A DNA stretch of 64,000 nucleotides from Bryum argenteum. Taxonomy: Eukaryota > Streptophyta > Bryopsida > Bryales > Bryaceae. A program made the translations under genes and the position numbers. The stretch's first letter is position 1, and every line of letters begins with the position of its first letter. This document shows positions 11,689 through 50,976 of the stretch, piece by piece. Location: positions 34,760,101 through 34,824,100 of the forward strand of contig CM073321.1 in the NCBI GenBank assembly GCA_037043015.1. Reading direction: 5' to 3'. Under the pieces are notes generated by a model. It saw only the letters and a program-made list of their open reading frames with translations. It was not told the DNA's origin and ran no database searches.

Positions 11689-11754
11689 AGTTGATGCCGC
11701 CTCCGCCCAATAAGCAGATACTGACATCTCTGGTGATGGGGACGTCGCTACCGT

Positions 11755-11790: not shown

Positions 11791-12222
11791 TCAAGTTTCA
11801 GGAATTTGAGCGCTGAATTGGTATTTTTAGCAAAATATTTTCTAAAAATGATATTTTACTATTTTTTTCTGTAATATTCTCAAGAATATTCGAATATTCT
11901 TGACTTATTACCGTGATTTTGTGTTCCTAAACCCGTGGAAATAAGGCTAAAATTTCTGAAATTTGGAAGACTTCAACCACGTTCTTCAAACGTTAAGAGA
12001 CATTTACGAATTTTACAGAGTAGACTAGTATATTATAACTGTGAAATCAACAGTCCAAGTTTGTATAGCAAATCATAATTTTGTGTAAATACGGATACAT
12101 TTATTGATTCTATTAAAACACTGAAATCAAAATAAATAACGTGTGAAACACACGATTACAGGGATAACATGTGGAATGGGTAGATGTGGATGTTGGTTTA
12201 CGTAATGTGACCTTGAGGTAGT
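11791..12222. other. AT-rich spacer before MULE
   Basis: No gene is seen. The stretch includes short palindromic words (ttctcaagaatattcgaatattcttga near 11876) and nothing else of note. Confidence 0.5.
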
Positions 12223-21431: not shown

Positions 21432-21569
21432 AGCATTGTCCACATTATATGTTACTTATTTATTATCTTTATCATATATCAATTTAATGATTTGTTTCAT
21501 CTTTTATTTCTTTTTGGACAAATTCTTATTATGTATGTGCTTTGTTGTAATTGGTTGTTTTTGTTACCA

Positions 21570-24500: not shown

Positions 24501-25852
24501 TTTAAGCTGGTAAATCTATTAGCCACTAGCTAATTTCTGACTTGTCTCCCAGATTGGCAAAGACCGTAAGTACCCGTGTTCGGCGATGGAGTATGAGCCC
24601 AAGCATCCAGGGATTGATCTCATTTTTGCAGATGCTCCCGAGAACTTGCTTGTACCGGGTGTGTCTCCAACAGAAATTCCATCCTAGAACCGGCGTGACA
24701 AAACCTACTTTGAGAGCCTCTTTGTGTTTGCCGCGTATCATTTGACAGACGTTGGAGCCATTCTTCTGATGCATCCAAAATGTCGGAGAATCGAGCGTAC
24801 TCTCGATTCTGAATCCCATATATATGGTTTTCGTCTTGTTCGAGACTGGTGGGGATATAATCCCCTCCCTATGGCCTCTACCGTACCCAAACCGAAAGAG
24901 GTATGAACCCTATTCTAGTTTCCAATTTCACAATTCATGGTTATTGCCTTCTATGCATCTATATTAATGTATCTATACTTCTGTTTTGCAGACTCACTGC
25001 TTTCATGTCAAAGTATATGTTCGCAAAGAGTATGTTTCGAAGTTCCAAACTCGGCAAGTGGCACACGCATACGCGGGTGTGGCAATCGTACCTGATGAGG
25101 AAGACCACCTCTGTAACTTTGCTGAGAAAGAAACCTTGCGTTATCGTCCGGACGGTACGCCCTGGCGAGGCTCACGAGAGAAGGACCCCTCATTGATTCA
25201 GTGTTTTGTCGATTGCCTCACGGACGAGGGGGATATAGTCTTCGACTGGAGCGCAAGAACAGGTAATGTTTCTGTAGACTCTATATTACAATTCGTTACT
25301 ACATTTCGCATTTTTAACGTGGGCTTCCGATTATGTAGGTGCATCTGTGATTGCTTGCGCGCGCTCCAACCGACACCTCATCGCCATGGAACCTGACGAA
25401 GAAATCTTTGATGGTGTACTCGCGGATTACAAGAATGGTCCTCCCGGTGATGAAGAAAGTGGAGAATCAGCCCCTCCCGCAGATTATGACTCTGACGAAC
25501 CAGTCGTGAAGAAGTCACGAAAATTCATTGGTGCGTAATTTCATCTTGTATTCTCTTTATCGATTTAAAAAAAACACACTTACATATCGGTAGGACTGAC
25601 TTTCTTTGTACTTTTAGGAGCGCAGGTCTGAAAGAGCGATTGTCTCGCAACGCTCATCTCTACAAGAGCCCTCCATCAAAATTCACCCTACCATCGTACG
25701 CTGAGCGTCTTGCTCAAGAGTTTGTTCAAGCTCCATCTCCCATTCTCTCTGACACTCCACGTCGACGTTATAGCAAGAGTGTACTTAAGTTTATAGACTT
25801 TGAGGCTGATCAGTGTGATCAGCACTTTAATGGTACTACACCGTCTGCCTAG
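21570..25852 (+). pseudogene. ParB-like / DNA-methyltransferase-like fusion gene, copy A
   Basis: Ten exons with consensus splice sites give about 1,160 codons: 21570-22385, 22472-22667, 22753-22950, 23043-23261, 23344-23579, 23667-24456, 24553-24900, 24992-25262, 25339-25530 and 25626-25852. Exon 1 holds a ParB/sulfiredoxin-like domain: PISEQDVRKLENEF, then YVYEGNHRVTA in the place of the ParB GERR box. Exon 6 is disordered with a KKKRRN patch. Exons 7-9 follow beta-class N4/N6 methyltransferase order. LIFADAPENLL is at the DPPY position (motif IV), a hydrophobic strand region follows, then KDPSLIQCFVDCL and VFDWSARTGAS at the FxGxG position (motif I). Both catalytic motifs are degenerate, so activity is doubtful. 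In-frame TAGs lie at 21606, 22261 and 24685. The last two replace Trp codons intact in copy B. ParB-methylase fusions are known from phages and bacterial mobile DNA. Acquisition from such a source is inference. Confidence 0.65.
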
Positions 25853-26073
25853 TGTGTGATTTGTTTTCCAATAGGTACTGGACATGGTAGCGCCATACAT
25901 TTGTAGTTTTCCATGATCTATTACTTATATACTATCTATATGTGTTTTTCAATATATACGGTTTTATATTTTTATAAGTCGGTAATTTGTATCCAAAAAT
26001 TTCCAGCACATTTAAGCCAACTCTCAATCCAAGTGTGAGTCGTGGCCATACAACTACTATAACTAGCAATCAA

Positions 26074-26511
26074 CTAGTCGTAGTTGGAATCACTCCCGGA
26101 ATCACTGCTGCTGCAATCACCAGCTTCTGAAGTGAATTCCACGAAATCCTCCCAAATCGTCTGCAGAGGCACTATCTCATACCTGTTGCAGCTGAAGCTC
26201 CCCCAATTTTTGCCCGTCATGTCCTTCAGGTAGTCGTCTCCCTTGTTCCGTGCGATACACGCTGAACACCACGCCTTGTTACAATAATCACACGGGATCA
26301 CAAACTGCATTCCTCCACACCAATTGCATTGCTCATCATCGTACTGGGCGTTCTTCGTGAATACAACGTCGTCCAACACAAGTTTGCACGAAATGCATAT
26401 GCCAACACCGAGACGAGGATGCTCCAACAAACAAGCACGGATTTTTTTCTCCCCGCAGGTAGTGCAGGAATACAAGTACAATGGATCCAAATCGCCCGAA
26501 TGCCCCGCCAT
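26074..26511 (-). CDS. ADD-domain zinc-finger protein, 145 aa, intact
   Basis: This single-exon frame runs from ATG at 26511 to TAG. Nearly the whole protein is one ADD domain (ATRX-DNMT3-DNMT3L). It has a GATA-like finger CTTCGEKK...LEHPRLGVGICISC, then a PHD-like part QCNWCGG, CDYCNKAWCSACIARN and W...SCNR. ADD domains in ATRX and DNMT3 bind the histone H3 tail unmethylated at K4, often with K9 methylation. No helicase or methyltransferase domain is attached. The C-terminus is acidic and Ser-rich (DCSSSDSGSDSNYD). It is convergent with the methyltransferase-like gene A (220 bp apart). A reader acting with that gene is attractive but unproven. It is one of few undamaged reading frames here. 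Confidence 0.8.
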   Translation of the reverse strand: MAGHSGDLDPLYLYSCTTCGEKKIRACLLEHPRLGVGICISCKLVLDDVVFTKNAQYDDEQCNWCGGMQFVIPCDYCNKAWCSACIARNKGDDYLKDMTGKNWGSFSCNRYEIVPLQTIWEDFVEFTSEAGDCSSSDSGSDSNYD

Positions 26512-26599
26512 TTGATCTGCAACAGTGCAAGAGTGAGAAGCTTCAAAAAGAGATGGTCAACGAATTGCTTTGAGATGATGGCTACCCTGCTCCTCCGTT

Positions 26600-27110
26600 C
26601 TTGTATATAAAGGGAGAACTCCGGATTTCCTTTCCAGCCTCACCAACCCGAGAACTCCGGATTTGCTTTCTAGCCTCACCAACCCGATTTCTCAGCACCT
26701 GCAGTGCCGTTAGGATCGACACACCGGCAACGCCGTCAAGATCGACACACCGGTAGCTTTTCCAAGGCACCTTTTCTGAACTCTCGATGGCACCGACATT
26801 TTAACGAATTAGAATTCGACACTGCAATTCCCTTACATTCTCATGACAACCGACGTGAGTTTTCAGGGAGACCGTCGCATCACTTTTCTTACATTCTCGT
26901 GAGTAATGAGCACCGACACAATGAGCACCGACACTGCACAGCTACATGGGACGAATTCGCCCCTTAACCGACACTCCTTATGACACAACCCATCCAATCT
27001 CATGAAGTCTAACATTATAATGCATGAGCACCGACATTTTGTGCATGGGACGTATTCACCGACCGACACTCCGACACTCCTTATGACACAATCGATTCCC
27101 ATCTAGTCCG
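26600..27110. repeat. Short tandem duplications upstream of the ADD gene
   Basis: Three small duplications lie 5' of the ADD gene. A 42-bp unit (gagaactccggattt...cctcaccaaccc) occurs twice at 26606-26690. A 28-bp gatcgacacaccgg unit occurs twice at 26713-26755. A unit of about 100 bp carrying gagcaccgaca and gacactccttatgacacaa occurs twice at about 26928-27000 and 27025-27095. The cgacac word recurs throughout. Confidence 0.6.
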
Positions 27111-27802
27111 ACACAGCCCAAACCAATTCCAGTACAAAAACCTGTTTTTTTTTTGTTGTAATATGAGAACATATTTTTATTTTTCACAAATTAGCTAACC
27201 CATTTAATCAATTACGGCCGAGGGCGCCCTTCCTGGATCGGCAGTATTTGAAGGCAGCCACGAATTGCAAGGTCGACAATTAAATGAGTTCCCCGAGGAT
27301 CCCATCAATGGAATCTCAACTGCTGGATCTCTAGATAGTGAGAATTCACTAACGTTGGGCCACATGATCAGGATATTGAATCCTTTTTGAGGAGGCTACG
27401 ACTGACACAAATAAAAAGTGTACCATGACGATCTGTTTGACAAGGGCACATTTGGCCGGTTTGATCGACGAGATCGATTTTTTAGAAACGATGTGCTGGG
27501 ACCAGCCTCCACTCGGAACATATGAACTTCGTTTGAGCATAATTGTCATTGTGGGGTCAAGAGGGCTCCAAGTTCACTATGCATGGGGTCATTAGTTGCG
27601 GGCTTTCAGTGCCCTCCACAATCATTCAGCTGAGCCCTTGTTCAATTTGTATTCCCCTAAGTCCTCACAAATCGACCAAATTTGGCAGGGTCGGCCCAAA
27701 AGGGTTAAGAGCAAAACAACAAAAACGCCTTTAACGGTTACGTCAGCCCTAATTTTGACGTAACTTCTTCAACTTTAATTTCCATGCATCGATGTATGTA
27801 AG
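27111..27802. other. Spacer before the 13-kb element, nothing recognised
   Basis: No gene or clear repeat is seen. A tcagccctaattttgacg word at about 27744 resembles the gacgtcagccctaatta word inside the inverted repeat, so the element could begin somewhat further left than 27803. Confidence 0.4.
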
Positions 27803-28549
27803 TGTTTAAGTTCTAAACTCAATGCAGCCTAAAAAGTTCAGAAGGTTTTTATTATTTTCCATTGGAGTGATTGAATCTTGCCAATGTTGGTAGGGGCTAT
27901 AGTCCATTATATGTATAGCTCAGGATAGCTGCTTTAAGTCGCAATGCAACGCTCAAACGAGGCCGAGGAGAATCGAACTCGGACCACTACAATGCCACAT
28001 GAATGTCTTCCTCTACACCTTACAAGGAGAGACGAGAAGACGACCTCTAGTTATAAATTTCAGATTATATAATTCGCAGCATTTACCAATAATTCTGACA
28101 AGTGTAATAGGAAATTGATGACGTCAGCCCTAATTATTCTCTAAATCTTAAAATTGATAAAATAAACTTATTGATTTCAGAAAGGGCCATCCCAAATTTT
28201 GGTTCACTTTTTGTATATGATTTGAATTGTATTGGTTACACATGATGATGCCAGCCCATAATTTAATTAACTTTTATTTAAACTTGCAAATGTGAATAAT
28301 TTATGAAATATTGTACAATCTCAATACCATGAAAATAAATGGATAAAAGACCTATATCCACGGTTTTGGGTACTTTTTCGCCTAAAAGTGACCATTTCAA
28401 AAATTCAGAACCACCCATTCCATGGTAATAGGGCTATTAACTTTTAATTTTTTTTTGCAATGAGTGGTAATAGGGTCTTAATCTTTCATGAAAAAAAAAA
28501 AAATTCTGCCAATCACCGCTCACTGCTCACCGCTCTCCGCTCACACCCG
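27803..28549 (+). repeat. Left terminal inverted repeat
   Basis: The order is gtgtttaag, ttggagtgattgaatc, gctcaggatagctgc, ccactacaatgccac, gatgacgtcagccctaatta, tgatttgaattgta, ccacggttttgggtac, ggtaatagggctattaac, then inner caccgctcactgctcacc. Each occurs in reverse complement, in reverse order, in the right repeat. The start of the SET gene lies 17 bp inside the inner end. Confidence 0.85.
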
Positions 28550-28565
28550 TGCATTCCCCCTGGTG

Positions 28566-31500
28566 ATGGCGGCGCGTGGTGACGTCCTTCCCGAACGACT
28601 GCAATCACCACCACAGGAGTTCACTATCCACAGGAGACTCGACACCAGGGTCGCCCATCTCTCAACGAAACGCACATTTCCGGTGAATCCTGCCCCCGCT
28701 AGAAAAGTGATTGCCTGTGGATCTCCTAGAGCTGGCCTCACAAAGAAGGTTCCTGTCCGAGTGATTGACCGACCTGCCACGACACCGCCTTCTATTCCTT
28801 CAGGTATGCACTCTTTCAATTCTGTGGCGATTTATTGAGATTTAGGGGGCACAATGACAATACGCCCATTGTATTGTCCGAAATTGCAGTGTTGCAGGAG
28901 GATGTTGTGGATTTGTCGGCTGTCCGCAGAGAAGTAGTCGCGCTAGGGGGTGCTGAAGGTGTTGAGCCGGCTAATACTCAAACTGTGGAGCCGGCGAATG
29001 GTAGCGCTGTGGCACCGGCGACAGGTGAAGCTGTGGCGCCGACGAATGGTGAAGCTCCGGTGATGGCGGACGCTACCGCTGTGGAGCCGGCTCGCGATCA
29101 TGAAGAAGTGGCGCCGGCTGCGAATAGTGAAGCAGTGGAGCCGGCTCTCGTTGACGAAGCAGTGGCGCCAGCTTCCACAGATGACCGAGTGGCGAGGGCT
29201 CCCGCTGAACTTGTGGCGGTGGCTCCCGCTGAAGCAGTGGCGGTGGCTCCCGATGAAGCAGTGGCGCCGGCTCCCACAGATTACCGAGTGGCGAGGGCTC
29301 CCGCTGAAGTTGTGGCGGTGGCTCCCGCTGAAGCAGTGGCGCCGGCTCCCGCAGATGAAGGACTGGCGTTGGCTCCAGTTCAAGTCCAAGCGTGTCGCAA
29401 CCCTTGCTAGCTCACCTTAGCTTACACCAACTTTTTCCCAACTCTAGCAAGTGTCACGAGCGCTAACTCTGCACATCCCCCACATGCACAAAGTTAGCTC
29501 TCCATACCAACCACCAAGCTCACCGCTTGGTTATCAATCCCTCCTACTCATGCAACCGGGACTCAACCCCTTCGTAGGTAGCCAATGGTTAGGTGCGGAC
29601 TTCCACTTATGTCCAAGGCCCAACTTGGTGGCACTCCCATACCACGCGGCCTAACCGCACTTGGTGGTGTCTCCTCACCACCGCCCATGACCACCATGGT
29701 GACCCCAAGGCCACCAAGTAATCACAACGCCGGCGGTGAGACACCACCCCACATCGGTAGCACTCATGGTCCTCATTTTGCCTATATGAGTCCCCGTGGT
29801 GAAGCCCCAACACTAGCTCCCCCACCGGGACTCACCTTGTCCTTATGAGCCACCGTGGTGAAGCCCCAACACTAGCTCCACCCACCGTGCCTCATTTTGC
29901 ACTTTGAGTCCCCATGGTGGAGCCCCAACACTAGCTCCACCCATTGGGACTCACCTTGGCTTGGAGTCCCCATGGTGAGGCCCCAACACTAGCAACACCA
30001 CTCGGGACTCCCACCTTGGTCACCACCAAGGCACCATGGGAGTGGGGAGGGAGACCAGCCCTCCCCATAGTATACTCTGTGGGATTCGGCAGCCCCCTGG
30101 TCCTAGGTGAAGGGCTGGACCCTCACACCTCTTAGGTTTGGAAGACCACCCAATCTCCCAATGCCTTAGCCGCTGGAAGGCCCCGGGAGACTTCCCGAAC
30201 CTTCCAGGGCTCGTATCTACCTCGTCCCGCATCCAAACGCGACGAGCGACCACTCTATCGACATCTACTCGTCAAGCAGATGCCGATAGACACCTTACTT
30301 GCCTCATTCCGACAAGTATTGAGGGAGTTATGCCCCTCTGAAGATTCGGGAGTCCCGGGCCAGCTTCCCAGTCCAGCACTGTCCCTGGACAGCACTCACT
30401 TTAGTCCCACAATCTTCCAACTCCCATAACTTTTAGCTCACACCTCCAAATGAGGTGCTCCTTAGCATCCCGGAATCGTGGCAACATGAGCTTCCATAAT
30501 CTCATGTCCATTCCCTCGTGGCTCCTAGTCTCCGTGGGTGAGAGGCGTCTCCAACGCCCGGGGTCCTCTCCCACACTAGGCCCACTTAGGTTCCCTTCAC
30601 CTTGGCACCCCAAGGCCCGGGCGTCACTCCGGTGTCCCCCTTGGGCCCTTGGTGTTGCGGGCACTCCTCAAGGAGAGGTGCGCGACAAAGCGCTACCACT
30701 GCTGGATGTGCCAGCGATCCCAGCGCAGTTTCCACCGCGCGTTATCCGGGCGCTCGAAGCACCTCATGTCCCAGCAACGGCTCCCGCTGAAGTCCCCGCG
30801 CCAGCTCGCGCTAACGTCCCAGCGCCCGCCTCTGCTAAGGTCCCTGCGCCGGCTCCCGTCGCTGCTAAGGTCTCTGCGCCGGCTCCCGTCGCTGCTAAGG
30901 TCCCTGCGCCGGCTCCTGCTAAGCGCCTAGCGCCGAAAATTCTTATAGCCTCTAAACCTGCTCGCGCTAAGCTCCTAGCGCCGGCTCCTGCGGAGAGAGT
31001 GGTTTGGGTGCCGCCGCCACAAGAACCAATTTGTATTCAGACACCAATGCTGCAGAATATGACCCCTGCAAAAGCTGAGGAAGCCCGATTGTTGACCCTC
31101 TACGAGTCTCCCGTGAAGACGCCTGGCGTACCCCCAATGTCTCCTATGGAAACTCTACAGGGCTCCTCCGCCTCTCCGAATACAAAAGGCTCCTCTCGCG
31201 TTGCGCGTGGCGCCAGAACCTATCCGGATGACTCCCTCTTCAGCTCAGACAACGAGAGCACCGGAAAGGTAAACCGTTCGCGTCGTTGCGGCTTTAAACC
31301 GCTGTCTGAGTTGTTGGACGAAGGACACAATACGCCGTCGCCAGGGGTGAAGTCTACAGTACATGGGAGAGGGGGTCGGGATGAAGAAGATGATGAAGTT
31401 GCCACACCGCCACCGCCCAAGAAAGTCGAGGTGCAAAAGAAGCGCAAGGTAGGGTCTGCCTCTGCTACTTCACGCTCATCCGTCGAGCGTCGAGTCCAGG

Positions 31501-33024
31501 GTCGGAGTGGTAGAACATAGGCTGACCCGCAGCATTTTTGTAGTTCCCAACGTGCACAGGGCTCAAGTCCCAGTGTGGACTTGCGATGTTGGAAGTGAGC
31601 ACCCAATAGATCAGCAATCACTTCCCAAGGCAATTGCGTGGGCTCAACCAATGTTGAAGCTCCATGAATGTATGGGTTCTCAGATTAATTAATTTATTAT
31701 ATCGATTAAAAGCCACAGTGGTGCCCAACACTTCAACAAATTCTTTATGAGGTGGGAGACATCTTGGAAAGGAACATTCCTAGGATTGCAAAGAAGAAGT
31801 TGAATTTAGAGTTTAGACCCAGTTATGATAGAAGCGGAAGAGATAGTTTACATAATTTTTATTATTATGTACACTAAATACAGTGCAGAAGTCCAGTTGT
31901 ACATTGCTGTACGTAAAGTCCTTTGGGTTTCTTCCGGTTTCTGACGTTGTGGTTGTCAATTGTGCCGTAGGGATCACCGGAGGCCACACCAAAATACATG
32001 ATAGCCGACATCTCTAGGGGATTAGAGAACAATCCCATCCCTGTTATAGCGTGTGATTATCCTTTCCCTGCCTTTGAGTACATCAAGACCAGCATAGTAT
32101 ACAAAGGAGCCAACATAGACGAGGCGCTGTCGAACTTGCCTAAAGAAGCCTTCTGTAAATGCTCGAGTGATGACTGTCTGAGATACCCTTGGTGTGGTTG
32201 CTCGGTTACTGGGAAGAACTAGAGGTTTGCGTACACTTCGCAGGGGACACTACAAGACACCTTTTTGCGAGGAAAGCTGGCAAAGGCGGCTAAGAAAATG
32301 ACCGGCTGCGACTGCATGGACTTGCGGCACATCGGTGGACACGAGCCTTGTACGTCACAGAAGCCCCTCTTCATGACGGAGTGCAATGTGAAGTGCGGTT
32401 GTGACGCTGACTATGGCAATCGCGTGGTACAGCAAGGGATGAAGCAAAAACTAGAAGTTTTCCACACGGGTAGAACAGGGTGGGGGATTAGGGCGCAAGA
32501 GCGCATTCCTAAGGGGGCTTTTGTTTTCGAGATGACCGGAGAGATCTTGACAAATGCAAAAGCAATGGTTAGGAACGAGGATGCCTTAGATGGAGCAACA
32601 GATTATAGTGTGCAGATTGACACCGATTGGGTCCTCGAGGAGCTGGCGGATGACAACACGGCCTTGAACGTGGATGCAAGTCGTTTTGGCAATGTGGCAC
32701 GTTTCCTAAACCACCGGTAATTTTACTTCTAAGTTTCGTATTGCTCAGCACATGTTCCCCGAATACCTAACCCTTTCTTTGCCATGTACTACTTGTAGGT
32801 GTGAGGACGCTAATCTTATAGACGTTCCAGTGCTAATAGGTAGAACCGATCGGAGTTTTTATCGACTGGCCTTCTTCACCAAGTGAAAAATCAACGCTCG
32901 TGAAGAACTCACCTCGGATTACAACACAAGTTTCATCACCGAATCAGACGATGATATGCAGCCATTTGCTTGCAAATGTTTGAGTATGCGGTGCCGAGAC
33001 CCCACCAGAGGTTCTATCATATGA
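28566..33024 (+). pseudogene. SUVR-like histone H3K9 methyltransferase carried by transposon
   Basis: The start is ATG at 28566. Exon 1 ends at 28803 (tcag|gtatgc); exon 2 begins at 28890. Exon 2 encodes Ala/Pro/Val-rich repeats (VAPAPAEAVAPA type) and is split by a solo LTR. Beyond 31000 the protein is Ser/Pro-rich with a basic KKRK patch. The exon 31971-32716 carries the SUVR pre-SET: DISRGLENNPIPV, CKCSSDDCL, FAYTSQGTL, ECNVKCGC and GNRVVQQG. The SET domain follows, with GWGIRAQERIPKGAF, GEILTN and RFLNH. Exon 32799-33024 continues with CEDANL, INAREELTSDY and the post-SET CKCLSMRC. This architecture is that of plant SUVR1/2/4 enzymes, which methylate histone H3 lysine 9. In-frame stops lie at 32220 (TAG) and 32884 (TGA). 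Exons between 31520 and 31970 are unresolved. It is probably a captured host gene, now decayed. Confidence 0.75.
29393..30687. mobile_element. Solo LTR, 1.3 kb, inserted in the SET gene
   Basis: The segment starts TGTCGCA and ends TGCGCGACA, a TG...CA structure with a terminal inverted repeat. AAGCG flanks it directly at 29388-29392 and 30688-30692, a perfect 5-bp target duplication. It interrupts the Ala/Pro-rich exon. No internal retroelement region is present. It is a fossil left by recombination between two LTRs. The superfamily is not determinable from an LTR alone. Confidence 0.8.
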
Positions 33025-33828
33025 AGCTCTCCTAATTGTATACAATGTGTATACCATTGAACATTCTGTACAGGTAGTAACAGATTACTCTCATTTAGCA
33101 ATAATAGAATAAAAACAATAAGTCGATGAGGGCCAAAGGCTACACAACATTTGCTTTATTCGTCCTTAACGTGCTAATAATGGTAGCTCGAGTGTGCCGA
33201 TTTCCACTCAGCAGCTGTCCACAGTCTCGGCAGAAAACGCTGAGAAACTATTTTGCAAATCGGGTGAACTTCCATTGTGTATTCCATCATTCTACACAAA
33301 GTTCTGAAAATGAATAAGCTCTACAAAAGAAGTAATCGAAAGCAAATGAAGCCTGTAGTATACAAGTACAAAGTACATAACGTAAAACCTGCTAAGCTAC
33401 GGGTTGTGTGCAATCACACAATCGCATCTGAAAACCCTCCCACAAGCAACTGTCCAAAATCTAGCTTGCTTCTCGAACGCTTTTGACTTGAGCTCCTGCC
33501 CCACGTAAAAACCCTCCCCAGTAAGCGAAAGTTTCTGGGTCCTGCGTTCTTCCCCGACCTCAATACAAATCAACAATCAATCTCTGGGTGTGTACCTTGA
33601 AAATTCGACGCTACCAACGAAAACCGCGTCTGCTCTCGCTGAGGTCGCAGCACGCGCGCCAGCTCCTACTGACTTCGCAGCGCTCGCGCCAAAAACCGCC
33701 GAGGTCGCAGCGCCGGCGCCTACTGAGCGTATACCTGCACAAAATGCAATTACAGACAAACATTTGTGGGCACAATGGAAGCCTATAGCAGGCTATTTAT
33801 ATTGGGAGTTCCACGCAGTCGCCCTCCA
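33025..33828. other. Spacer between SET gene and transposase 3' ends
   Basis: No gene is seen. A short GC segment (33640-33740) repeats gaggtcgcagcgc and gcgccagctcctactga words. When translated it would be Ala/Pro-rich, much like the SET gene's repeat exon, so it may be a stray piece of that repeat. Confidence 0.5.
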
Positions 33829-36800
33829 CTACTCCGAGTTGAATGCCCACCAATTCTGAATTGCATCCTCACAAAGCCGTTTTGACTCCGGCGGAATATG
33901 ATACACAGACGCACCTTTAACTCGATAAGCTTGCAGGTACATGCGAAACCTGCCTACCCTCACCAGATGTGCATCCAAGGTCGCATCTTCCTCTCTACTG
34001 CAAAGCACGTAGGAGTTCGCACCCCTTCCATGTTTTTTGTAGTACTTACCTACAATGACCTCATCCCTAGCAATAAAACGTGGACCCCATGGACAAATGA
34101 AGTCAGCAGTTAACACAAACTTCTCTTTTGTACATATCAGAAGATGACAATCCGCCTTCTCATAGTCATCCGCCTCTACTGGCACCATGTAATTGTCGCC
34201 CATTCTAACCAACTCCCCGACGTCCTCACAGACTGCATCATGCACCCACATGGCTTCATTGTCAAGTAAAGCCACCTGGCGCGCCAATGCATCAGCCCGG
34301 AAAGGTACTAGTCGCTCCACCTTCCAATCCTTCACATGCCCCCGATTCTCACAATCAGCCCAATTACAATCTACACAGAAAACACAAAAGCATGACAATT
34401 CCCGGGTTTTAATTAGCGTTGGTTCAGTAATGGAAAAACCCATAACAGAGTACAAACTTTTTGAGCCACTCAACGTACGGCACTTTAAACTGCTGTCCTT
34501 GTGGTTGACCTCGAACTCATCTACAAGCCAAAATTCACGAGTTATTGGTTTAGAAATAGCCTGGGAGTAGTGTGTCTCTACACGGGTGGAGTAATTCCCT
34601 CGCAGGAATCCCACTACTTCGGCCGCATTTCGGAGAGGCCGGTCGGGGTTCTGAATTTGCTCTTGCCGCAGCGCTCTTTTAATCACCGCACCGGCGCCAT
34701 CCCACTCTCCCTTCCCGTGTGCGGCTTCGAAATAGTTCCAGCGCATCAGACACCCCCCTGTCAAAAACGGATAGCGCGCCACAAAATACATTGCACTTGC
34801 ACACTTAAATTGAGATGAGCACCCATCAGAAAACACCCAATGTTCTTGGAACCCCACCCCTAACCCTATAGCCCAATTCCAATGTTTTAATAAATAGTGT
34901 TGAACAAATGCCGAATCGTGGCATTTGTCGTCAGAAATGTAATAATGTGTACTTTTTAGTACATCGCCACCCAATCTATACATAGAAATCTGTACAAGAA
35001 TCGTCACAGAAGTACTAATGTAGTACAAACTCTGAACTTCGTTCTGTATGGCGAAAGTATAGTTTTCAGCAAAGTCAATGTAGGATACAAGAACTCCCTC
35101 AGGCACGTTTTTCATCATATTCTGGCATTGCTCATCCTGCCATCTTGCTCTGAAGTTGTGCGTGATGAACTTTGTCACGGTCTTCTCCATGTAGGCTATG
35201 AAATCAAGAATAGGCGTCTCCATGAACTCCTCCCTTAGGCGTTTCTTTGCCAACCCTGTTTCTGCATGCACCCCAACTTCGTAATACTGAAAGCATTTCC
35301 ACTTTATAAGGAACTCCTCATCAGCTATTTCTCGGGGGCACAATTCAAAAATGTGAAACCCACAATCAGAGCAAGTTCCCATTAGACACTCTAACCTGTG
35401 GTATTTGTCAAACTCTCCCTTACGACAAACACAACTTTCCCACATTAGGGTCATATGTTTAAAAAACCTATCATGTGTCTGGCACCTACCTCCCTGAGAG
35501 TCACCTGCACAAACCAAACATTCACAGACACAATTTGTGGCGGGATGGAAGCCCCTCAATCTATCCCTCAAGTTGCTCAAGCCAACCTTCATCATATCCA
35601 TTTCAACATGGTATATGCAGCAACAAGTGTTCCTTTCCTTGAGTTTCTTCACCCACCACGGCTTGAGTCGCTCAAAAGCTCGAAGTCGTACCCCACAATC
35701 TGGGTGGGCTTCTAGAATTCGCTAAAAGAACACCGTTTATACAAACGAAGTACACTTCGTTAGCCACTGTGCAACAAAAGTACTGCCAGGGGGAATAGTG
35801 TACTGTACTGTCACAAACTTCAAAGTACTAAACTTCAAACCGAGCATAACACGTACACAAAGTTCGAAATCAACGCTGTTTGTGTAGAGGATGTACACCA
35901 CGTTAGCCAGTACTCAGAAAATGTACTCCTAGGAGAATAGTGTACTCCTGTCTGTGTCACATGGATTTCAGAGTACAAGACTACAAACAATGCAAATCAC
36001 ATACATAGCCTACACATGCGCAGGAATAAGTACTTCACTTCATACAAATCACGTAAGGATGTTCTAACATCTTGTACGTGTTTTGTACACATAGAATGAA
36101 CGCTGTGTACAAAACACCAGATGTACGAACTGATCAGCTAATGTACTCTAGGGGAACTATAGCAAAAAATGAGTTCACTACACAGATACATGCACTGAAC
36201 ACAATGTACAAGAAAATGATAGCGAAGAAATGGAGACGTCAAGTACAAAGACTCTTTATCGACGAAAACCAATCAATTTTTTACATTAAGTACACCCTAT
36301 ACCATTCCATGGCAATTTTGTGCAGACAGCAAAATATCATACTGTACTAGAAGGACAATGCCTACAATCAGTCAGAGCAGTTACCGCTGGGAGAAGCACA
36401 ACAGAAACACAAGAACTACAAAAGATACACAAGAAGTACAAGAGTCACAAAAGGTAGTTATATACCTGTGATTCACAAAGGTAGTGAGTGGGATGTGGTG
36501 GCAGCCACTCCTTCCTACCGGTCTTGTGCCTTACAACATCCTTCTTATTAGGACTAAATTTCGTTTCGTTGCTCCACCACGCAATAACAGTCGCCTTCAC
36601 GTCAGCAGACAGCCCTTCCCGTCTTTGCCAACATAATCGAAGTTTGGGCAAGAAAGTTCCATCAGAATCAGACACCCTTCTCTTGTAAGCAGTAGCAAGC
36701 ACTTTCCTACTAGATCCAAGCACTCTTGATAAAGTACCAAGTTTTTGAAACCCACTACTTCCAGCTGCGTCTAACAACGCTGATTTCCTAGCTAACAGAT

Positions 36801-37347
36801 CGTGAGAGTTTGCAATTTTAACAAGGCCTAACTCATGCCTAAAACTGTCAATGAAGGCATCCCTAGCACGAGCTTCCTGAGGACGGTGATAAAAATCCGG
36901 CAAGAACAAATACACTCTCTCCAACACACTCTCCATTACAACTTTCTTGTCAGCTAGATTATTAACCTCTCTCAACTGTTCTGAAATGAAAGCAAAAATT
37001 CGTGAGGACATTCTCCTGGACTCTCTACGGTTTTGGGAGGGAAGGGAGGGAAGTACTCCTCCATCGGTGGTCTCACAGTCCATGCTACCCGAACCCAACG
37101 ACGTGGAATCTCTATCGCCCAACCGCTTTAGCTCCTTCTCGCGACTTCTCTGCAACTGCTTTCTGTCCCGAGCCGCTTCTGGGACCTCCGCTCGCGTCGC
37201 CTCTAACAGGTGTTGACGCTCAGCATCACTCTCAACAACCTCACGCTCAGCAGCCTCACGCCTAATCAACGCCTCAGCGAGCCGTTTCCTCGGACCGCCT
37301 ACTTTCAATCCTTCCCGTGCGCGACGTTGCTTAGCAGCATTACCCAT
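33829..37347 (-). CDS. DDE-type transposase of the 13-kb element, apparently intact
   Basis: Exon 1 is 37347-36466 (donor cacag|gtatat) and exon 2 is 35721-33829 (acceptor ttcttttag). Phases agree and give a 924-residue protein without stops. The N-terminus is basic and coiled (residues 1-100). Later come Cys-rich segments (TCCCIYH, CVCECLVC, MGTCSDCGFH). The catalytic core reads SYIDFAENY, then VFSDGCSSQFKC, then EAAHGKGEWDGAGAVIKR, which I take as the D, D and E positions. The HGKG...DG.GA.KR signature is found in many unclassified eukaryotic transposases. I cannot assign the superfamily. A CFCVFCVDCNWADC cluster and a C-terminal domain follow. Being intact while neighbours are broken, it may be the youngest or most constrained frame here. 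The intron is dense in GTAC. Confidence 0.65.
35745..36440. other. GTAC-saturated transposase intron
   Basis: I count 22 GTAC tetramers in about 700 bp within the transposase intron, a density close to that in the RING-gene intron at 10.3-10.9 kb. Many occur as tgtactcct or agtacaaag words. Confidence 0.6.
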
Positions 37348-38376
37348 TGCACCCTAAACCCTAAACGCCACTTCTATTGAGTACTCAGAGGCCACGGCAA
37401 AATTAGAAGCGCTACCGCAACTACCGCCGAGGTTACAGAAGCCTACACTCAAACTAAAACCACCCTTGACAGCAGCTTTGTAGGAACCGCCTATCAGATT
37501 CTCGCGCCTATCAAATTCTCGAACTTCTTGCGCAAACTTGCTGCAAAAGAAACAACGCGATCTCACTCCGGAAATCGCAGCCCCCCCCCCTCCCTCCTTC
37601 GATTTGGAGACAACGACGGTTAGAATTCATTGTCGTAAGAGTGGCGACTAGAATGCAGACTTCTTCGTACATGACAGGTTCGGGATGGCGGCTATGATTT
37701 AAGCTGTCACTCGTGCCACGTAAGCAGCTGTCATTTCTACCACGTAAGCAACTGTCAGTCGTGTCAGGCTCAGTACTTGATGTACTAAAGTAAACCACAT
37801 AATGTACAAAAGACTCGGGCTATGCGGGAAAATAGTCATACCGCCACACATGTTTATTCAAATTTCGGACTTCTACCTAATGGGGAGAACCTCTTCTTAT
37901 GCTGGAATCCGCTTTACAAACTCAAAAAAAATAAAATTTTGAAACACATATGCTTTCCAAAGCATTTTATCTATTTTTTGCAATTATCAAACAATTATCA
38001 GCTCCCACCAATGAATCAACCTCAAAAATCTAGAAGAACATTATATTATACTCTTGAAACCTTGTACATAACTCTAATTTCAATTCTAAACAAGCCCAAA
38101 CTATGTACTTTTGCATTTTTAAAAACTGCGTGACCCAGTGGCTGAAAATTGGAAAAGTACACTTTAAACATACTTCTCTATAGGATTTTCTAAATGTGAT
38201 TGTTGTAGAATCATCTTCGAGTTGTAAGGCACCTAAGTCTTCTAAGAAACCAACACACACCCACTTCTAAGGTATGTTAAATTCATGCCAAAAACCGTCA
38301 ATTTCTGGATTTTGGCAAAAATGTACATTGTGACCTAAAAAGTGGGTCGGTCTAGCATACTTCCACCCATATAGAG
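37348..38376. other. Spacer upstream of transposase, no gene
   Basis: The first part (37348-37810) is the probable promoter of the transposase, with a C-run at 37579 and two ccacgtaagca words near 37715-37750. The rest is AT-rich without features. Confidence 0.5.
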
Positions 38377-39048
38377 TTGCCACCAAAGTACTCTCCGAGG
38401 GAGCTTTTTGTTGGGTCGAGGTCGGCACCTATCTTTGATGCTGTTCTCCAGGGTGCGGAGACTTGCATATCATCACTGCGTCCAGCACCAGCTCTTCCAC
38501 TTCGAAAGATTCCTCTTCCGCCAATTCTCAATGTTCAGATGGACAATGCAGCAGATGACAACAAGAATAGATATGTATTGTATTTTTGGTCTCTCTTTGT
38601 TGCAAAGAAGATCGTCCGGGAGGTATACGTCAATTTCATGTTCGTTGGGCATACCCATAATGACATCGATGCAATGTTTGGGAGGTAGAGCATGTTGTTG
38701 AGGAAAGACAATTTCCCCACTATACCGTTACTCATGAAATCATACATGGACGTCGAATCTATTCCAGCCATCCCCCACCTTGTTGAAGAGGTGCGAGATT
38801 TTAAAGGATTTATCGATGGGTTTATTAGGGATGGAGGGGAAGCACTTTCTGGTCATATGAAGGAAAACAATTCAAGTTTTTTTTGGATTCGACAGGTTGT
38901 CCCGTGATGAAGTACAAGGTTTTGTGCTCATTAGAAGATAGGTTGCCAAATGATACAACCGGAAGTAGGTTGTGGAGAGAGGACTCGGAAGGTTGTTCTT
39001 TGTGGCCACGTGGTGATCCAACTCCTACGACGGGGAAACCACCGGTGT
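38377..39048 (+). pseudogene. Second transposase-like fragment (DUF7869-like RNase H fold)
   Basis: Residues ILNVQMDNAADDNKNRY and FVGHTHNDIDAMFGR match the widespread eukaryotic transposase-type domain with a D-N...NKN strand and a GHTH.DID acidic site. The tail continues through MKYKVLCSLEDRL to WPRGDPTP and a TGA just as the inner heptamer repeat begins. The start is missing and a TAG at 38686 replaces the Trp of the usual GRWSM. A second stop separates the tail. It is unlike the main transposase, so it may be a remnant of another element or an accessory gene. Confidence 0.55.
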
Positions 39049-40929
39049 GAGCGTTGAGCGTTGAGCGGTGAGCGGTGAGCGGTAAAGTTTGAGCGGTAAG
39101 AAAAAAATAATTTAAAAGTTAATGGCCCTATTACCATGTAATGGGTGGGTCTGAAATTTTGAAGTGGTTATTTTTGGGCATAAAAGTACCCAAAACCGTG
39201 GATATAGGTCCTTTATCCATTTCTTTTCATAGTATTAGGGTTGTATAATATTTCATAAATAATCCACATTTGCAAGTTTAAATAAAAGTGAATTAGATTA
39301 GGGCTGACATCATCATGTGTAACCCATACAATTCAAATCATATACTGGCCACGTTCACTCACAAATACAAAACTTTAACGAAAATCTGGGAGGGCCCATT
39401 AGGACATCAATAAATTTACTTTTATGATTTTAAAATGTAGGGTATAATTAGGGCTGACGTCATCAATTTCCTATTACACTTACCAGAATTTTATGTAAAT
39501 GCTTCGGTTTATATAATCTGAAGTTTATATCTACAAGTCGTCTTTCCGTGTTTCCTTGTAAGGTTGTGAGCCAAAAATCCACCATGGAGGTGGCCTTTGG
39601 TCACAAGGAGATTAATAGCTCCGATTGGGGCGTGCCTTAGCTTTTTAGAAAGCTAAGTCAATTTTGCACTTACCCTCAAAATCTCAGAATCATAGGACTA
39701 GAAACCTAGGACTGATTACCAAATAGCTGGGGCTGTTTTTCCTACTGCCGGCAGCGGTTACCCTTCAACACCCTTAACTTTGGAGGGGTGTATCTCCCTC
39801 CCTACAACTCGGAATCGGACGAGCCATATATCAATGGAAAGCTACTGAAGAGATCTACCATCATCTCAAGTCTTGATTTGGTTGGACAAAAACCGAGGGA
39901 CTGACGGGGGAAAAACTGAGAGGTACAAGAGAAGACATCACACACTCAAGGCAATCACTACTAGCATGGAAGGGGAGATCAATATTAGAGAGAAGGAGGC
40001 CCTCGGCCCTCCTTCTCCTATCAACTAAGCATTACAAGAAGAAGAGGTAGACAAACAAGATGAATCAAGATACAAACAAGAAGAGGAAGGCTTGATTATA
40101 GATAGCTTGCAAACAAGCTCTTAAGTAAAAAATATGGAGCCGCCGGAGAGGCGGCTCACTCTAACCCTACCAAGGCTCAAAGCCCAACTAAGGTTTTATT
40201 GGATGAATGTCGTCACTACTTCACGCGCTCCATCCTTCAAGCCTCCATTCCATCAACCACTTCATCAATGGATGTAGCCTCACATGCTACCACAAGGTTA
40301 TATGGATGAGACCTGCAACAATCAAATTTCAAACACAACATCGACATCAAAGACTAGTTGTACAAAGCCCATGGTAAAACGCTCAATTCTAATTTAAGCA
40401 ACTAACCCTATTTCTAATTTAGGATTCACTAGGGGGAATTTTTTCCTCCTCTAGTTCTTCTCCATCATCAATTGGATCCACTAGAGGGAATTTTTCCTCC
40501 TCTAGTCCTTCCACACCCTAAAGCTTAAATTAGTCATAAACGTCCCATCAAAGGCCTTGCAACAACTAACCCCTAATATACAAATTGCATTCAAAACTAA
40601 ATCATTGTATATTCATCAATTTACCTCAAGATGTCATGGTTTGCAAACACTTCATTAATAAAAGTCATTATTAACAACATTTAAACAAGAGAGCGCTTCA
40701 CGCTCTCACAAAGGTATACAGAAAGACATTCACGTGGCATTGTAGTAGTCCGAGTTTGATTCTCCTCAGCCTCGTTTGAGCGCTGCACTGCGTCGTAAAG
40801 CAGCTATCCTGAGCTATACAAATATTGGAGTAGAGCCTTTACCCACATTGGCTAGATTCAATCACTCCAATTGAAAATAAAGAAACGTTCTAAAACTTTT
40901 GGTTTGCATTGAGTTTAAAACTTAAACAT
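39042..40929 (-). repeat. Right terminal inverted repeat, split by an LTR
   Basis: The reverse complement reads in the same order as the left repeat. The inner end carries gagcgttgagcggtgagcgg. Removing the 1,146-bp solo LTR and one target duplicate leaves about 737 bp, matching the left repeat's 747 bp. Confidence 0.85.
39565..40710. mobile_element. Solo LTR, 1.15 kb, inserted in right inverted repeat
   Basis: It begins TGTGAG and ends CTCACA, with AAGGT directly repeated at 39560-39564 and 40711-40715. The flanking sequence rejoins in register with the left inverted repeat, which confirms the insertion. It contains two copies of a cactag.gggaattttt word near 40430-40500. It is a fossil without internal region and differs in sequence from the LTR at 29393. 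Confidence 0.85.
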
Positions 40930-41150
40930 TAATTTTAGATATTAATTAAAAATGCGTTAAACGTTTATGATTAACAGGTAAACGTCATATATAGATATAA
41001 AAACGGATAATAAAACCATATGTATGACCAATGCCGTAGGGCAACTATATGATCGTACGTAGTCCAAACCAAACCAGGAAAATAAAAACACCTAAGATGC
41101 TGATGGTGAACGACCATTTAAGTGTTGGTCACACTAATCAGCCTCATCGT
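40930..41150. other. Short junction between transposon and copy B
   Basis: About 220 bp separate the inverted repeat from the 3' end of the ParB-methyltransferase copy B. No feature is seen. Confidence 0.5.
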
Positions 41151-44100
41151 CTATAAACGCAAGCACTCTCGAGCTAAGCGTCGACGTCTACTACTGTCCG
41201 ATAATACGGGAGAAAGGGCAGCCACAAAATCCTGAGCTATCCTCTCCGCATAAGTTGGTAGACTGAAACTTCGCGGAGGACGGCTGTAGAGACTTCCGTC
41301 GCCAATTAAGCGTCGATTTGAACCTGCGATTGTAAAAGTACAGAAAAAGTCAATACCAATAAATTATTAGCAAGTGAAAGTGACAATAGAAGGGGGGAAA
41401 GTAAGAGATAATTAAGCACAAAATGTTGGGCGTTGCTTCTTCTGAAGCGGTTCACAAGTGTCACTCTCGTAGTCATAATCTGGAACCAAATCGCCGCTTT
41501 CTTCCTCAGAAAAGGTACCATCTACGTATGCCGATAAAAGTCCGTCAAATATCTCTTCATCAGCTTCAACAGCAATGAGATGACGGTTTGATCGCGCGCA
41601 GGCAATCACAGAAGCACCTACATACCTGCAACCAACATCAGAACTACAGTATTGAATAAGTTGAATGAAAGTTGGTATTAGCAACAACTAACCTGTACTA
41701 GGACTCCAGTCAAAGACGATTCCCCGCTCGTTTGTGAGAGAATCAATGAAACATTGGATGAAGGATGGATCCTTCTCTTGCGAGCCACACCACGGAGTAC
41801 CATCTTCCTTCTTACGAATGGAGTCATTGCTCGCAAAATTGAAAACATGGTCCTCCTCGTCGGGAAGAATGGGCACACGTGCGTACTCTTTTGCAACCTG
41901 TCTTATAGAGAATGTGGTGGCGAAAGACTTCCGAACAAAGATCTTAATGTGGAAGTTGTGAGTCTACAAAATTCAATCCATGAGAGAGATTTAAAAAAAA
42001 GTTGTAAATAATCATGACTGATGATTTGCATGCAGAATGAAGACCATACCGTTTTCACATGAGGGTGCGTCGAGGCCATTGGCATGGGATTATATCCCCA
42101 CCAATCTCGCACCATTCGGAAATCAAAAGCTTTCGACTCCGCATCCAGAGCTTTCTCGACTCGACGGTCCTTGTGATGCATTACAAGTATCGCACCTTCG
42201 TCCGTCAAGTTGTAGAAAGCAAAATAGAACACACTCTGGAAGTAACTTTTCTCTCGCTTGATCCATGAAGGGATTTCGACGGGCGACACATCAGGCACGA
42301 GTAAGTTCTCGGGAACGTCTGCGTAGATGAGATCAATGCCGGGATGCAGGTGTTTCGTGCCCATCATCTTACATGGGTACTTCCTGTCCTTGCCAATCTT
42401 TAAAAGTCACAAAAAGTTAGACATGTTGTAAGCAATGTGTACCAATCAAAATTTCAGAAAGAAAATAATGTTATAAAAGATTTAAGACATAATACCTTTC
42501 TGATGTGGTTAATAATGTCCATGACTTGCGCGTCCCAGTCTTTTGTTTCGTGAGCTGCCTTTTGAACAGAAGCTCCGAAATCCCCTTTTTCCAAGTACAT
42601 TGGGAAAGGAATAGTAATCTCAGAAGACAAGCACTCTCCAACATGCTTCGGTTCAAGAAATGGGAGTGAAGCGAACTTCTTTCCGGAGTTGTGGTCGGCT
42701 GTGAAAGATTGAGGAGAGGACCCCGCATTCGTAAAAGCGCTTGCAGAAATCTGAGTCAATTGTCGACCACGTCTACCTGCAGTGTTGGTTGCACCATGTA
42801 AAGCCTGAGTCAACTCAGCTTCTGGACCTGCAATGTCTTGATGGAGCGGAGCAATTTCATCGGGTTCTTGATCAAGATCAACGACAGGCTCTGCAGCGGC
42901 GTTGCGTCGCTTTCTGTTTGCTCGTGTCCTGGGTTGTGCAACCGGTGAAGAAGGTTCGGAGGGTGAGACAGGTGCGCTTGGTAAAACGGAGACGTCTTCG
43001 TCGTCATCGTCATCAATCTCCATATGTGCATTGCCTGGTGCGTTTGAATTGAGGTTCCAAAGCAGATGTCTCTCTTCCTTGTGCACAAAGTTATCGTTGT
43101 ACTCAAGGAACCATCCACCGGTCAGCAGTTGTGAGTTGGAAAACCGTCTCTGTTGGGCTTCAGAGAAGATGCTGGATGGATCATTTGAGACATTACGTCC
43201 TCGAGCTCAGCTACAATGGACCACGAAGCCAAGGCTCCTTTGCTAAGAAGCTATTGTTTCAAGTACCTACAGTCAAGAAAACATATTACAATGACAAAAT
43301 TCAGTATACAGTACTCATTTTGGTACTTCGCAAATTGAGTAGGAAAATGAAAGGCTAAGTTAATACGTACCGGAATAAGAGCCATTTAATAGTAACCTTG
43401 CCACCACTAATTTTCTGAAAATCGGATCCTTTCATGAACTTGGGGCTGGCATTTTGAGCGAGGTAATTGCCGAATGCCTTTTCCCATAAAAGCAATCTTC
43501 ATTTTTCAACATACGCGGATGGCTTCAGTACGGCATCGGTCTACTGAATGTGGATTTTGCCATCCTCCAGAAGTTGTTGCATTTCACTTTGGAGGGATTG
43601 TTGTAACTGCAATCAAGTAGAACCCGTTAGAAAAAGTACATAGTGAACGTATTGTAATGATAGAAGTTCAAAACAATATACATGAGCCCAAAGAGAAGCC
43701 CGATGCAAAAATGCAAGCAACGTTTTATCCTTCATAGGGCGCTCTACTAGGAAGTGGACAGATCGACAATCATCATTTGGCGCATTCCACCATTGCAACC
43801 ACTTTCCCTTAAAATCAAAATGAACATTGGTGGTGGCTACCATGTGCAACCGATCGATTGTCATATCGGGCTTCAGGTTTTGGTTGTAGTGAGAATAGAT
43901 CTGCACATAGAACAAATCGAAGTAGAGAATTTCAGTATTACTCAATAACAGTATTTAGTCTCACTAGAAACTAAGTAGAAAGAATTGTTTACCTCTTTCG
44001 GGAATACTTTCCCAAGTTTGTTACTGGCCACAGCAACCATCTTGTCGAATTGTTTGCTTCGAATTGATTTGATTTCCGCTTTGATGGCGTTATCCATGGC

Positions 44101-45352
44101 ACTCCAAACTCCTGGCCCTGTTTCCTTCTCTTTAGCGGTAGTGGCGTAGTAAGTAGCTTCGGCATTATCCGATGCTTTTGCTAACCTCCTCTACATGGCA
44201 CAGAAGTAGTAGTAAGAAATTGTAATGAAATGAGTACAAGATAGAAGTGTTTAGTACGTATTAAGAAGTCTTACCGCGTATAAGAACTTGACGAAGATGT
44301 CCAGTGTGACAGGATACCATGTATCTTTTTTAGCTTTAGCGTTTTTGCAAATTTGGTAATCCTCTGGAGTAATGAGATCCTTAAAATCTTCAAGTTTCAA
44401 CTTACCAAACTTCCTCATGCGTTGCAGCTTCGCACATAAACTGTCTTTGACATGGTCATGTTCAATAGACCTATATAGCGGAAAGGTAGACCTATATATA
44501 AGAATACATCGAGGTTACAAAAAATCAAAATAAAATTAATTAAAAAATGTTTCAAGTACTTACCAATTTATGTCATTCATGGCGTCAAGAAGGAGATTGC
44601 TTTCTCAGTTGATTGCATCGTACTCAATTAACTGACATGTACCATGATGGATCCAACTGGTGGTACCTCTCTACATGACGCATCCACGCCGTCACACGGT
44701 GGTTACATTTGTATACGTAGAAGTATTTGCCACTGAGATGATGAAGATCAGAATCCGACATCAAAGTCTTCTCGAACTCTTCATTTGCATCTCTCCAAAG
44801 CGGATTCTCCCACAAACTATCTCCTGCATCAACTTTTTTTTCTCTTTCTTTCTTATCGAATGGAGATACATACATTACCCGATCTCCTTCTCGGTAACCT
44901 TTGTTGAACTAGTTCTAGAGTTTCCGGACGTCTTGTTCGGAGATAGGACGAAGCTTTGAGTAACACACCAAAATGCACAATGGAATGAGCATACGGGACT
45001 TCTTAGCAGGTTTGAAACAGAACCTGTTTATAATTGCAATGGAATCACTTTTGAGAATCATCCGCATCTCGTTCGCACTCCATCCACGATCTTTGTTTTG
45101 GAGATGGGGTGGCATGTGAACGTTGCCGATGTTGACACTCCCTGGCAAAGAAGACTCTTCGTCATCCGAACGAGACTCGTGTCGATCGAGATCTTGCATG
45201 GCCTCCGGAGAAGGTTCGGTTTCGATGGGAGTATCACGCGCAACTGGAAAAGGCATGAATTCCACATTTTCTTGTAGTACGGGTGTGCTATCCAGGGTTG
45301 TCTTATTAGACACACTTTTCGGAATGTCTGTCTCAATTGTCGTATTGGACAT
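41151..45352 (-). pseudogene. ParB-like / DNA-methyltransferase-like fusion gene, copy B
   Basis: The exon plan matches copy A. Exon 1 starts with ATG at 45352 and ends at 44564; exons at 44470-44275, 44190-43993 and 43900-43682 follow, and the others are alignable down to the last exon near 41324. The ParB-like part reads CNHRVTAWMRHVERYH. The methyltransferase part has LIYADVPENLL and VFDWSPSTGASVIACARS. Protein similarity to A is roughly 60-70 percent by eye, so this is an old duplicate. Stops lie at 44915 and 44909 (Glu codons in A) and at 43541 and 43499 (Trp codons in A), and the last exon slips frame. Intron positions are conserved, so the copies arose by DNA duplication after introns were gained. 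A GC block lies upstream (45490-45790). Confidence 0.65.
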
Positions 45353-50196: not shown

Positions 50197-50976
50197 TCAT
50201 TCTTCGCTTGGGCCCCCTTCATTATAAAGTTGGCTTGGCCCCCCTTCATTACAAACTTGGCTTGGCCCCCCTTCATTACAAACTTGGCTTGGCCCCCCTT
50301 CATTACAAACTTGGCTTGGCCCCCCTTCATCCAAATGTGCTTCATCTTCCTCCATGGTTTGGTTCGGCTCCCCTTCATCCACTTCTCGCCTTTCGGTCGT
50401 TTCTTCTTCTGAATCTGACCAAACTATGTCCTCATCAGGGATTCCTCCTCTGTAACCCCTAGGCGTTGTAAGACCTTCTTGTGGGTTCTCCGCTGGATAA
50501 GGAACTCGCGGAATATGGGGTTCTGTTGGCTTAATAGTTTGAGGCGATTTTTTTAACGTCCTCCAATCCACCTCCCTCTCCAAAATTATTTCCGCGTGTA
50601 GCATTTGTGCTATGTTGTACGAAACCTCGTTGCTCACCACAAGCACACCGGCGTAGAGGAACTTCCACACTTCAATGCATCGTTGTATTAATTCATCGTC
50701 ATTGCAATAGTGCAATATTGCGCTATTCAAGCGGCAATGAAACTCGTGACGATAGTGTGGAAACAAATGGCCGATGTGGCACCAAGCAATGTACCACTTG
50801 CAAGTCTTAAGAGTCCACAGTCCCTCTACTGTCGCCCACCCCGGAAAAGCATGTTGCGTGAGATCTACAAGAATCTTGTGATATCTCCTTTGCTTCTTTC
50901 CTTTCCTCTTGTGGTTTTTGTCTCTCGCTATTTTCCGCTCCTGGCTAGGCGTCATCGTCACCCAAATGCTAACCAA
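50197..50976 (-). CDS. Family F copy 2: N-terminal domain with nonapeptide repeat tail
   Basis: This 259-residue frame opens at ATG 50976 (a second ATG lies seven codons in). It contains the best N-terminal family F domain: HAFPGW, then GLWTLKTCKWYIAWCHIG, LFPHYRHEF, AILHYC, CIEVWKFLYAG, EVSYNIAQMLHAEIILE and EVDW. An acidic segment WSDSEEE follows. The protein ends in five NEGGPSQVC-type nonapeptides encoded by a 27-bp tandem repeat. No RING is present before the stop, so it is either truncated or a short form. Function is unknown. The GC block with 143-bp units is upstream. Confidence 0.6.
   Translation of the reverse strand: MVSIWVTMTPSQERKIARDKNHKRKGKKQRRYHKILVDLTQHAFPGWATVEGLWTLKTCKWYIAWCHIGHLFPHYRHEFHCRLNSAILHYCNDDELIQRCIEVWKFLYAGVLVVSNEVSYNIAQMLHAEIILEREVDWRTLKKSPQTIKPTEPHIPRVPYPAENPQEGLTTPRGYRGGIPDEDIVWSDSEEETTERREVDEGEPNQTMEEDEAHLDEGGPSQVCNEGGPSQVCNEGGPSQVCNEGGPSQLYNEGGPSEE
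50213..50332 (+). repeat. 27-bp coding minisatellite, five units
   Basis: ttcat recurs at 50218, 50245, 50272, 50299 and 50326, an exact 27-bp period keeping the frame of the F2 gene. The unit is ggccccccttcattacaaac plus ttggctt. Confidence 0.9.

Follow-up and report, generated by a model that had tools for sequence, protein, structure and literature searches.

A large DNA transposon of Bryum argenteum that carries a SUVR4-like SET gene, a RING-like gene and an integrase-like transposase

DNA transposons encoding a SET-domain histone methyltransferase are already on record, the HarbingerS and MuDR families of Phytophthora being described as such (Kojima and Jurka 2014, cited in the accessible text of PMC12730594). 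The element reported here was found in a 64,000-nucleotide stretch of the genome of the moss Bryum argenteum (contig CM073321.1, here C1, positions 34,760,101-34,824,100); this whole stretch is called the window, and coordinates without prefix refer to it. The element shares with the Phytophthora families the basic plan of a DNA transposon with a SET histone methyltransferase gene. Those families, as far as the available part of the same source describes them, have oomycete hosts and Harbinger or MuDR transposases, whereas the Bryum element combines a SUVR4-like SET gene and a RING-like gene with a transposase lacking any Pfam match and with 4-bp target duplications. An earlier sequence-only reading of the window knew of no described family with a SUVR-type SET cargo. 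Literature searches directed at SET genes on transposons of plants or of the Sola type listed none, nor any plant lineage with SET and RING, PMC12730594 being the one paper on the subject; most subscription papers, and Repbase Reports, lay outside these searches. A SET gene on a DNA transposon is not new in itself, and it is the joint presence in a plant of SET, RING and this transposase that looks like a new combination.

By description, Sola elements offer further points of comparison. They are characterised in the accessible portions of PMC10741241 and PMC3627910 by a DDD transposase, 4-bp duplications and variable terminal repeats, some exceed 15 kb, they are reported in a moss, and Sola2 elements have captured a foreign gene, Fanzor1. 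The Bryum element is similar in its 4-bp duplications (six of six copies) and terminal inverted repeats; the likeness is one of description, and those portions of the two sources do not mention SET or RING cargo for Sola. A silencing-mark enzyme is also carried by several DNA transposon lineages of fungi, namely a TET/JBP dioxygenase; this enzyme serves DNA demethylation and has moved from lineage to lineage, while the SET gene here seems to have stayed within one superfamily (PMC12730594, same portion). In VANDAL elements a plant DNA transposon gene, VANC, alters the silencing of the element's own copies, but VANC is a DNA-binding anti-silencer of Mutator-like (MULE-type) elements and no methyltransferase (PMC10398659, in the text available). 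SETMAR, too, joins a SET domain with a transposase, but it is a single fused primate host gene and no mobile multi-gene element.

The true right end of the SET element lies at position 38368, the one base at which the copies of the window, C6 and C4 all diverge (loci are labelled by contig, C1 being that of the window and the other C labels denoting further loci of the same genome). The right terminal inverted repeat occupies 38342-38368 on the minus strand; its end sequence is present at a single place in the window and, as an exact 19-base match, at eight in the genome. On C6 two such ends face one another across 16,068 bp, so that the uninterrupted element measures 16.1 kb, and the terminal inverted repeats of this family, designated s, are about 27-30 bp long. 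Target duplications of 4 bp were present in all six copies readable at both ends (C6 TGCT, C4 TCTA, C3 AGGT, C9 TGAG, window ATAT and C7 CCTT) and have no common motif; for the window and C7 copies the right flank was already known before the left flank was located. For the window element, the ATAT at 38369-38372 recurs in the left flank at C1:34728648-34728651; the element, lengthened by insertions, spans C1:34728652 to C1:34798468, about 69.8 kb, and its left end lies about 31 kb before the window. Reckoned likewise, the C4 copy is about 42.7 kb and the C7 copy about 59.1 kb long. Within the window, the element is represented by two plus-strand fragments: a left one at 9236-11739 (95% to C6), which holds the 3' part of the RING-like gene and a spacer and continues at 28562, and the main one at 28562-38368 (92-94% to C6 and 95% to C4), which contains about 1.3 kb (29392-30704) missing from C6.

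The DNA around the SET gene has four near copies in the genome (94-100%) and ten distant ones (67-70%), several of the latter forming family d, with a length of about 14.4 kb and 31-bp terminal inverted repeats at 87%. The gene order is fixed: RING-like gene, SET gene, then the convergent transposase. Open reading frames (ORFs) of C6 (family s) and C3 (family d) match in these three genes, namely RING-like at about 42%, SET at 56.5% and the transposase exons at 50% and 62-79%, the remaining matches being antisense frames over the same genes. Several insertions therefore exist with the SET gene in the same place and a shared duplication length, which the sequence-only reading had named as what would support it. 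Its proposal of a DNA transposon with a SUVR-type SET gene and its own transposase holds, while it erred in the ends and size that it assigned and in the choice of enclosing repeats; a DNA transposon carrying an H3K9 (histone H3 lysine 9) methyltransferase-like gene is supported more strongly than had been claimed.

Searches of the own genome covered 258.8 Mb in 25 contigs, and because only the best candidates were scored, partners may be missed: the best 72 of 543 candidates for the transposase (96 matches merged into 71 loci), the best 150 of 327 and the best 150 of 303 in the SET searches (together 154 loci), the best 138 of 250 for RING (137 loci), and the best 40 of 429 candidate places for the end region of an inserted transposon, A, discussed below. 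The matched transposase stretches were 34-100% identical to that of the window; their correlation with SET identity was not used, the stretches differing in length. A convergent SET gene (opposite strand, downstream, at most 12 kb away) was present at 57 of the 71 transposase loci with a median gap of 1,237 bases, a SET gene in any other arrangement within 12 kb at none of them, and the full triad with RING at 40. Shifts of SET and RING positions by 50 kb to 5 Mb left on average 0.32 pairs and 0.17 triads, with a maximum of 2 for each; when strands were shuffled in place, the averages were 28.2 (maximum 38) and 9.8 (maximum 20). These two nulls replaced a uniform-random one. SET-RING pairs at 12 kb or less stood in the expected arrangement in 91 cases and otherwise in 3, and 114 of the 154 SET loci had a scored partner. 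The SET gene travels with divergent transposase lineages, and the arrangement is superfamily-wide.

The SET ORF of the window (32265-32720), which the sequence-only reading had noticed, scores 38.4 bits against Pfam SET (cut-off 22.4). The gene consists of a pre-SET/SET exon at 31971-32716 (plus strand, 91% to the open C6 exon) and a last exon at 32799-33024 (plus strand) with the end of SET and post-SET, the borders being placed from splice-like signals. It is not intact in the window, in-frame stops occurring at 32220 and 32884; the C6 counterpart of the last exon is open. In C6 and C3, representing families s and d, the pre-SET/SET exon is open and both domains exceed their Pfam cut-offs; SET is completed in the following exon, which also has the post-SET cysteines. 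The best matches among solved structures are to EHMT2, and the nearest named proteins include plant SUVR4 (39-53% over the matched part), so that an H3K9 activity of the element's SET protein would be expected from its relatives. The SET exon ends at NHR, the same endpoint as in the Ilex SUVR4 model P0066, a hint, not proof, of a shared intron. No Pfam family, and hence no WIYLD domain, was detected in the two upstream element ORFs scanned, though the Manihot protein P0063 has WIYLD.

Selection was estimated by the Nei-Gojobori method (NG86). Between families s and d the SET gene gave a proportion of nonsynonymous differences (pN) of 0.29 and of synonymous differences (pS) of 0.82, the latter saturated, and it is under purifying selection between the two families. 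C3 against C5 gave rates (dN, dS) of 0.005 and 0.063, a ratio of 0.09, and the ratios from C6 were 0.29 against C7, 0.36 against C4 and 0.60 against the broken copy of the window. In a tree of SET rows only (42 of 43 rows and 122 columns, some rows being short, with 83 residues for C3c), the SETs of the elements and of database proteins joined the named SUVR4 proteins with a support of 94, apart from EHMT2 and the genome SET L053, and were separated from SUVR4 with a support of only 67. The SETs of C10, C6b, C3b, C4b and C3c, which accompany more distant transposases, lay apart from those of s, d, C8 and C9. This topology, modest in its support, appears to fit inheritance of SET together with the transposase.

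The transposase-like gene, read earlier as an apparently intact 924-aa DDE-type transposase, was recovered as two open minus-strand frames, a first exon at 36445-37347 (a 300-aa frame, conserved in family d) and a large exon at 33829-35652, whose integrase-like core is indicated by model and structural match; the 924-aa joined product is predicted. Candidate DDD residues among 37 sequences are D193 (33 of 37, 3 gaps), D276 (37 of 37) and D318 (23 of 37, 8 gaps). No Pfam family was matched by the window transposase at an E-value of 1 or lower, 37 homologues gave only DUF4326 (five) and four single weak matches, and NCBIfam gave no result for transposase, SET or RING. Foldseek alone returned weak matches only, the best being NurA (E 2.8e-4, TM-scores about 0.1). 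Relatives in public databases, 36 proteins and 62 by profile, mostly lack names; the best full-length one, P0001, and the SET protein P0042 each come from a 5,267-base contig of the same source, which suggests that the two genes share one contig. For the transposases of C5, C7 and C9d3, high ratios and stop counts were considered as a sign of decay, a view ruled out by comparing their DNA with C3 in the transposase region: C5 and C9d3 differ by about 0.3-6% per 400-base bin, as does C7 except for one 109-base bin at 21%. Their ratios were not used because small frame shifts produce such values.

The RING-like ORF of the window is listed at 9162-10241 on the plus strand; its part at 9236-10241 belongs to the element (93% to the C6 RING ORF). 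RING matches of the element protein lie below the curated Pfam cut-off, and its NG86 ratios were 0.33 for C3 against C5 and 0.32 for s against d. A separate ORF at 3701-5164, within the span of the interrupted element, has a RING-H2 finger above the Pfam cut-off (37.1 bits) and matches the element RING protein over 28 residues only.

The long inverted repeats taken earlier as the limits of a 13-kb SET transposon are real, with 27803-28456 matching 39103-40928 in five pieces that are 78-96% complementary, but both arms are end regions of the abundant transposon A, and the 13 kb correspond neither to the uninterrupted 16.1 kb of C6 nor to the 69.8 kb of the window locus. The left arm, used as query, found 429 candidate places (40 scored), as against four near copies of the SET DNA, and no SET gene lay in the 3.5 kb retrieved from any of seven other copies. 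What the sequence-only reading had named as a refutation, repeat copies with no SET gene, therefore applies to these repeats; it leaves the real element untouched, since that has other ends. In all seven (L002-L008, about 3.5 kb each) homology continues outward beyond 27803, while on the inner side it breaks off at 28559-28568. Because it runs outward past 27803 in every copy, the inner edge is the terminus of A, the body of which lies outside. The DNA matching window positions 11739 and 28562 is contiguous in C6, an empty site for A, so that A was inserted at 11740-28560. This insertion, whose end region had been taken for the left repeat, has two ends that share a 34-bp inverted match (94%) and is flanked by a 9-bp target duplication, TGGTGATGG, at 11731-11739 and 28561-28569. 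Beyond the SET element lies part of a second A copy, inverted relative to the first (39032-45188, as far as it was followed), whose end region is the claimed right repeat and which has an extra insert at 39582-40710. The stretches 21759-25848 and 41099-45188 of the two copies are inverted relatives at 68%. On C7 inverted A copies also flank SET DNA, and the SET element resumes past A.

As SET DNA is framed by inverted A ends in both the window and the C7 copy, one might still take the repeats at 27803 and 40929 for the limits of a 13-kb transposon, or think of a MULE with SET taken up between its ends (a Pack-MULE). This is refuted, and hardly any credence is left to it: the A bodies lie outside their ends in all seven copies compared, C6 has the empty site where the window has the 9-bp duplication, the SET element has different ends with 4-bp duplications, the C6 and C4 elements have no A at these places, and the C7 element picks up again after A. 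The repeats at 27803 and 40929 were thus rejected as element ends by the outward homology and the C6 empty site. Harbinger elements have a transposase of a Pfam DDE family and 3-bp target duplications, and MuDR and Pack-MULE elements have duplications of 8-11 bp, so that a 9-bp duplication suits a MULE. Harbinger membership of the SET element was dismissed, its transposase having no Pfam family and its duplication being 4 bp, not 3, in six of six copies; MuDR or Pack-MULE membership was dismissed on the same 4-bp duplications, the 9-bp one belonging to A. For A itself, "MULE-like" refers to the 9-bp duplication alone, because a Pfam scan of two of its ORFs (14292-15407 and 23671-24510) and of one ORF of the right copy (41906-42367) gave no family. 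A tandem array lies within A at 18684-20947, with most repeats about 310-330 bases apart and 70-88% alike. Between the SET element end and the second A, at 38369-39031, is a coding-like fragment reading ...VGHTHNDIDAMFGR, which we take to resemble a transposase-associated plant domain.

The window probably holds an interrupted copy of a large DNA transposon from a diverse superfamily, which would have acquired a SUVR4-like plant gene in a single early capture and passed it on with the transposase since; the latter, which may be close to Sola, would move the element by a DDD/E mechanism. Some counts weigh against so regular an association: 14 of the 71 transposase loci have no convergent SET within 12 kb and 5 have neither partner within 20 kb, while 64 of the 154 SETs lack an upstream RING within 12 kb and 40, on contigs C1-C11, lack a scored transposase or RING partner within 20 kb. 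These 40 could represent SUVR genes of the host, broken elements or loci with unscored partners. The transposase loci at which no SET was found, together with the stops in some SET copies including that of the window, could also mean that the element picked up a host gene by chance and that SET rides along as a passenger with no function. We consider this improbable, because SET occupies the same place and orientation at 57 of the 71 loci of divergent transposases, and its frames are open in both families although synonymous divergence between them is saturated.

What the SET protein does for its carrier is the least certain part. Arabidopsis SUVR4 converts H3K9me1 to H3K9me2 or H3K9me3 in vitro and can bind ubiquitin through WIYLD, according to the accessible text of PMC7218100; WIYLD was not found in the two ORFs scanned here, yet the unit contains a RING-like gene. 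On the simplest reading, the element would encode a chromatin writer directed at its own copies, which it would restrain, shelter or free. We tentatively favour, at somewhat short of even chances, the view that the element has its SET protein write H3K9 methylation onto its own chromatin, perhaps with the aid of ubiquitin which the RING-like protein would place, and tunes its silencing in this way. A more far-reaching version, in which the superfamily has carried a kit of RING ubiquitin ligase and SUVR4-like H3K9 methyltransferase since before its lineages diverged, with ubiquitin placed first and H3K9 methylation following, to escape or tune the host silencing loop, is possible and on the unlikely side; if it were true, most SUVR-like SET loci of this genome would be transposon genes. 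Still less likely, SET might free the element by pushing H3K9me1 to higher states, or by acting as a decoy, and so break the host loop between H3K9me2 and DNA methylation with a VANC-like effect. The in vitro action of SUVR4 on H3K9me1 (PMC7218100) and the existence of transposon-borne anti-silencers (PMC10398659; PMC12730594), all in the portions cited above, would agree with this. That SET marks or reads target sites and steers insertions into heterochromatin, or silences competing transposons, seems more doubtful again: such steering would be in keeping with a chromatin writer encoded next to an integrase-like transposase, but the six target duplications show no common motif.

Among other features of the window, minus-strand ORFs at 6559-8214 and 47673-48950 contain DUF659, the first also a hAT dimerisation region, and by these domains they appear to be remains or relatives of hAT-type transposases. 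Direct repeats (69%) at 50468-50911 and 55379-55819 overlap two similar minus-strand ORFs.

Transposons are the usual targets of H3K9 methylation, and here a transposon superfamily encodes its own H3K9-methyltransferase-like enzyme, kept under selection and spread with its partners to more than 100 loci of one genome. In genomes of this kind, transposons may lead to an overestimate of the number of SET genes. The finding raises the question whether transposons silence, shelter or redirect themselves by using the host's own mark.
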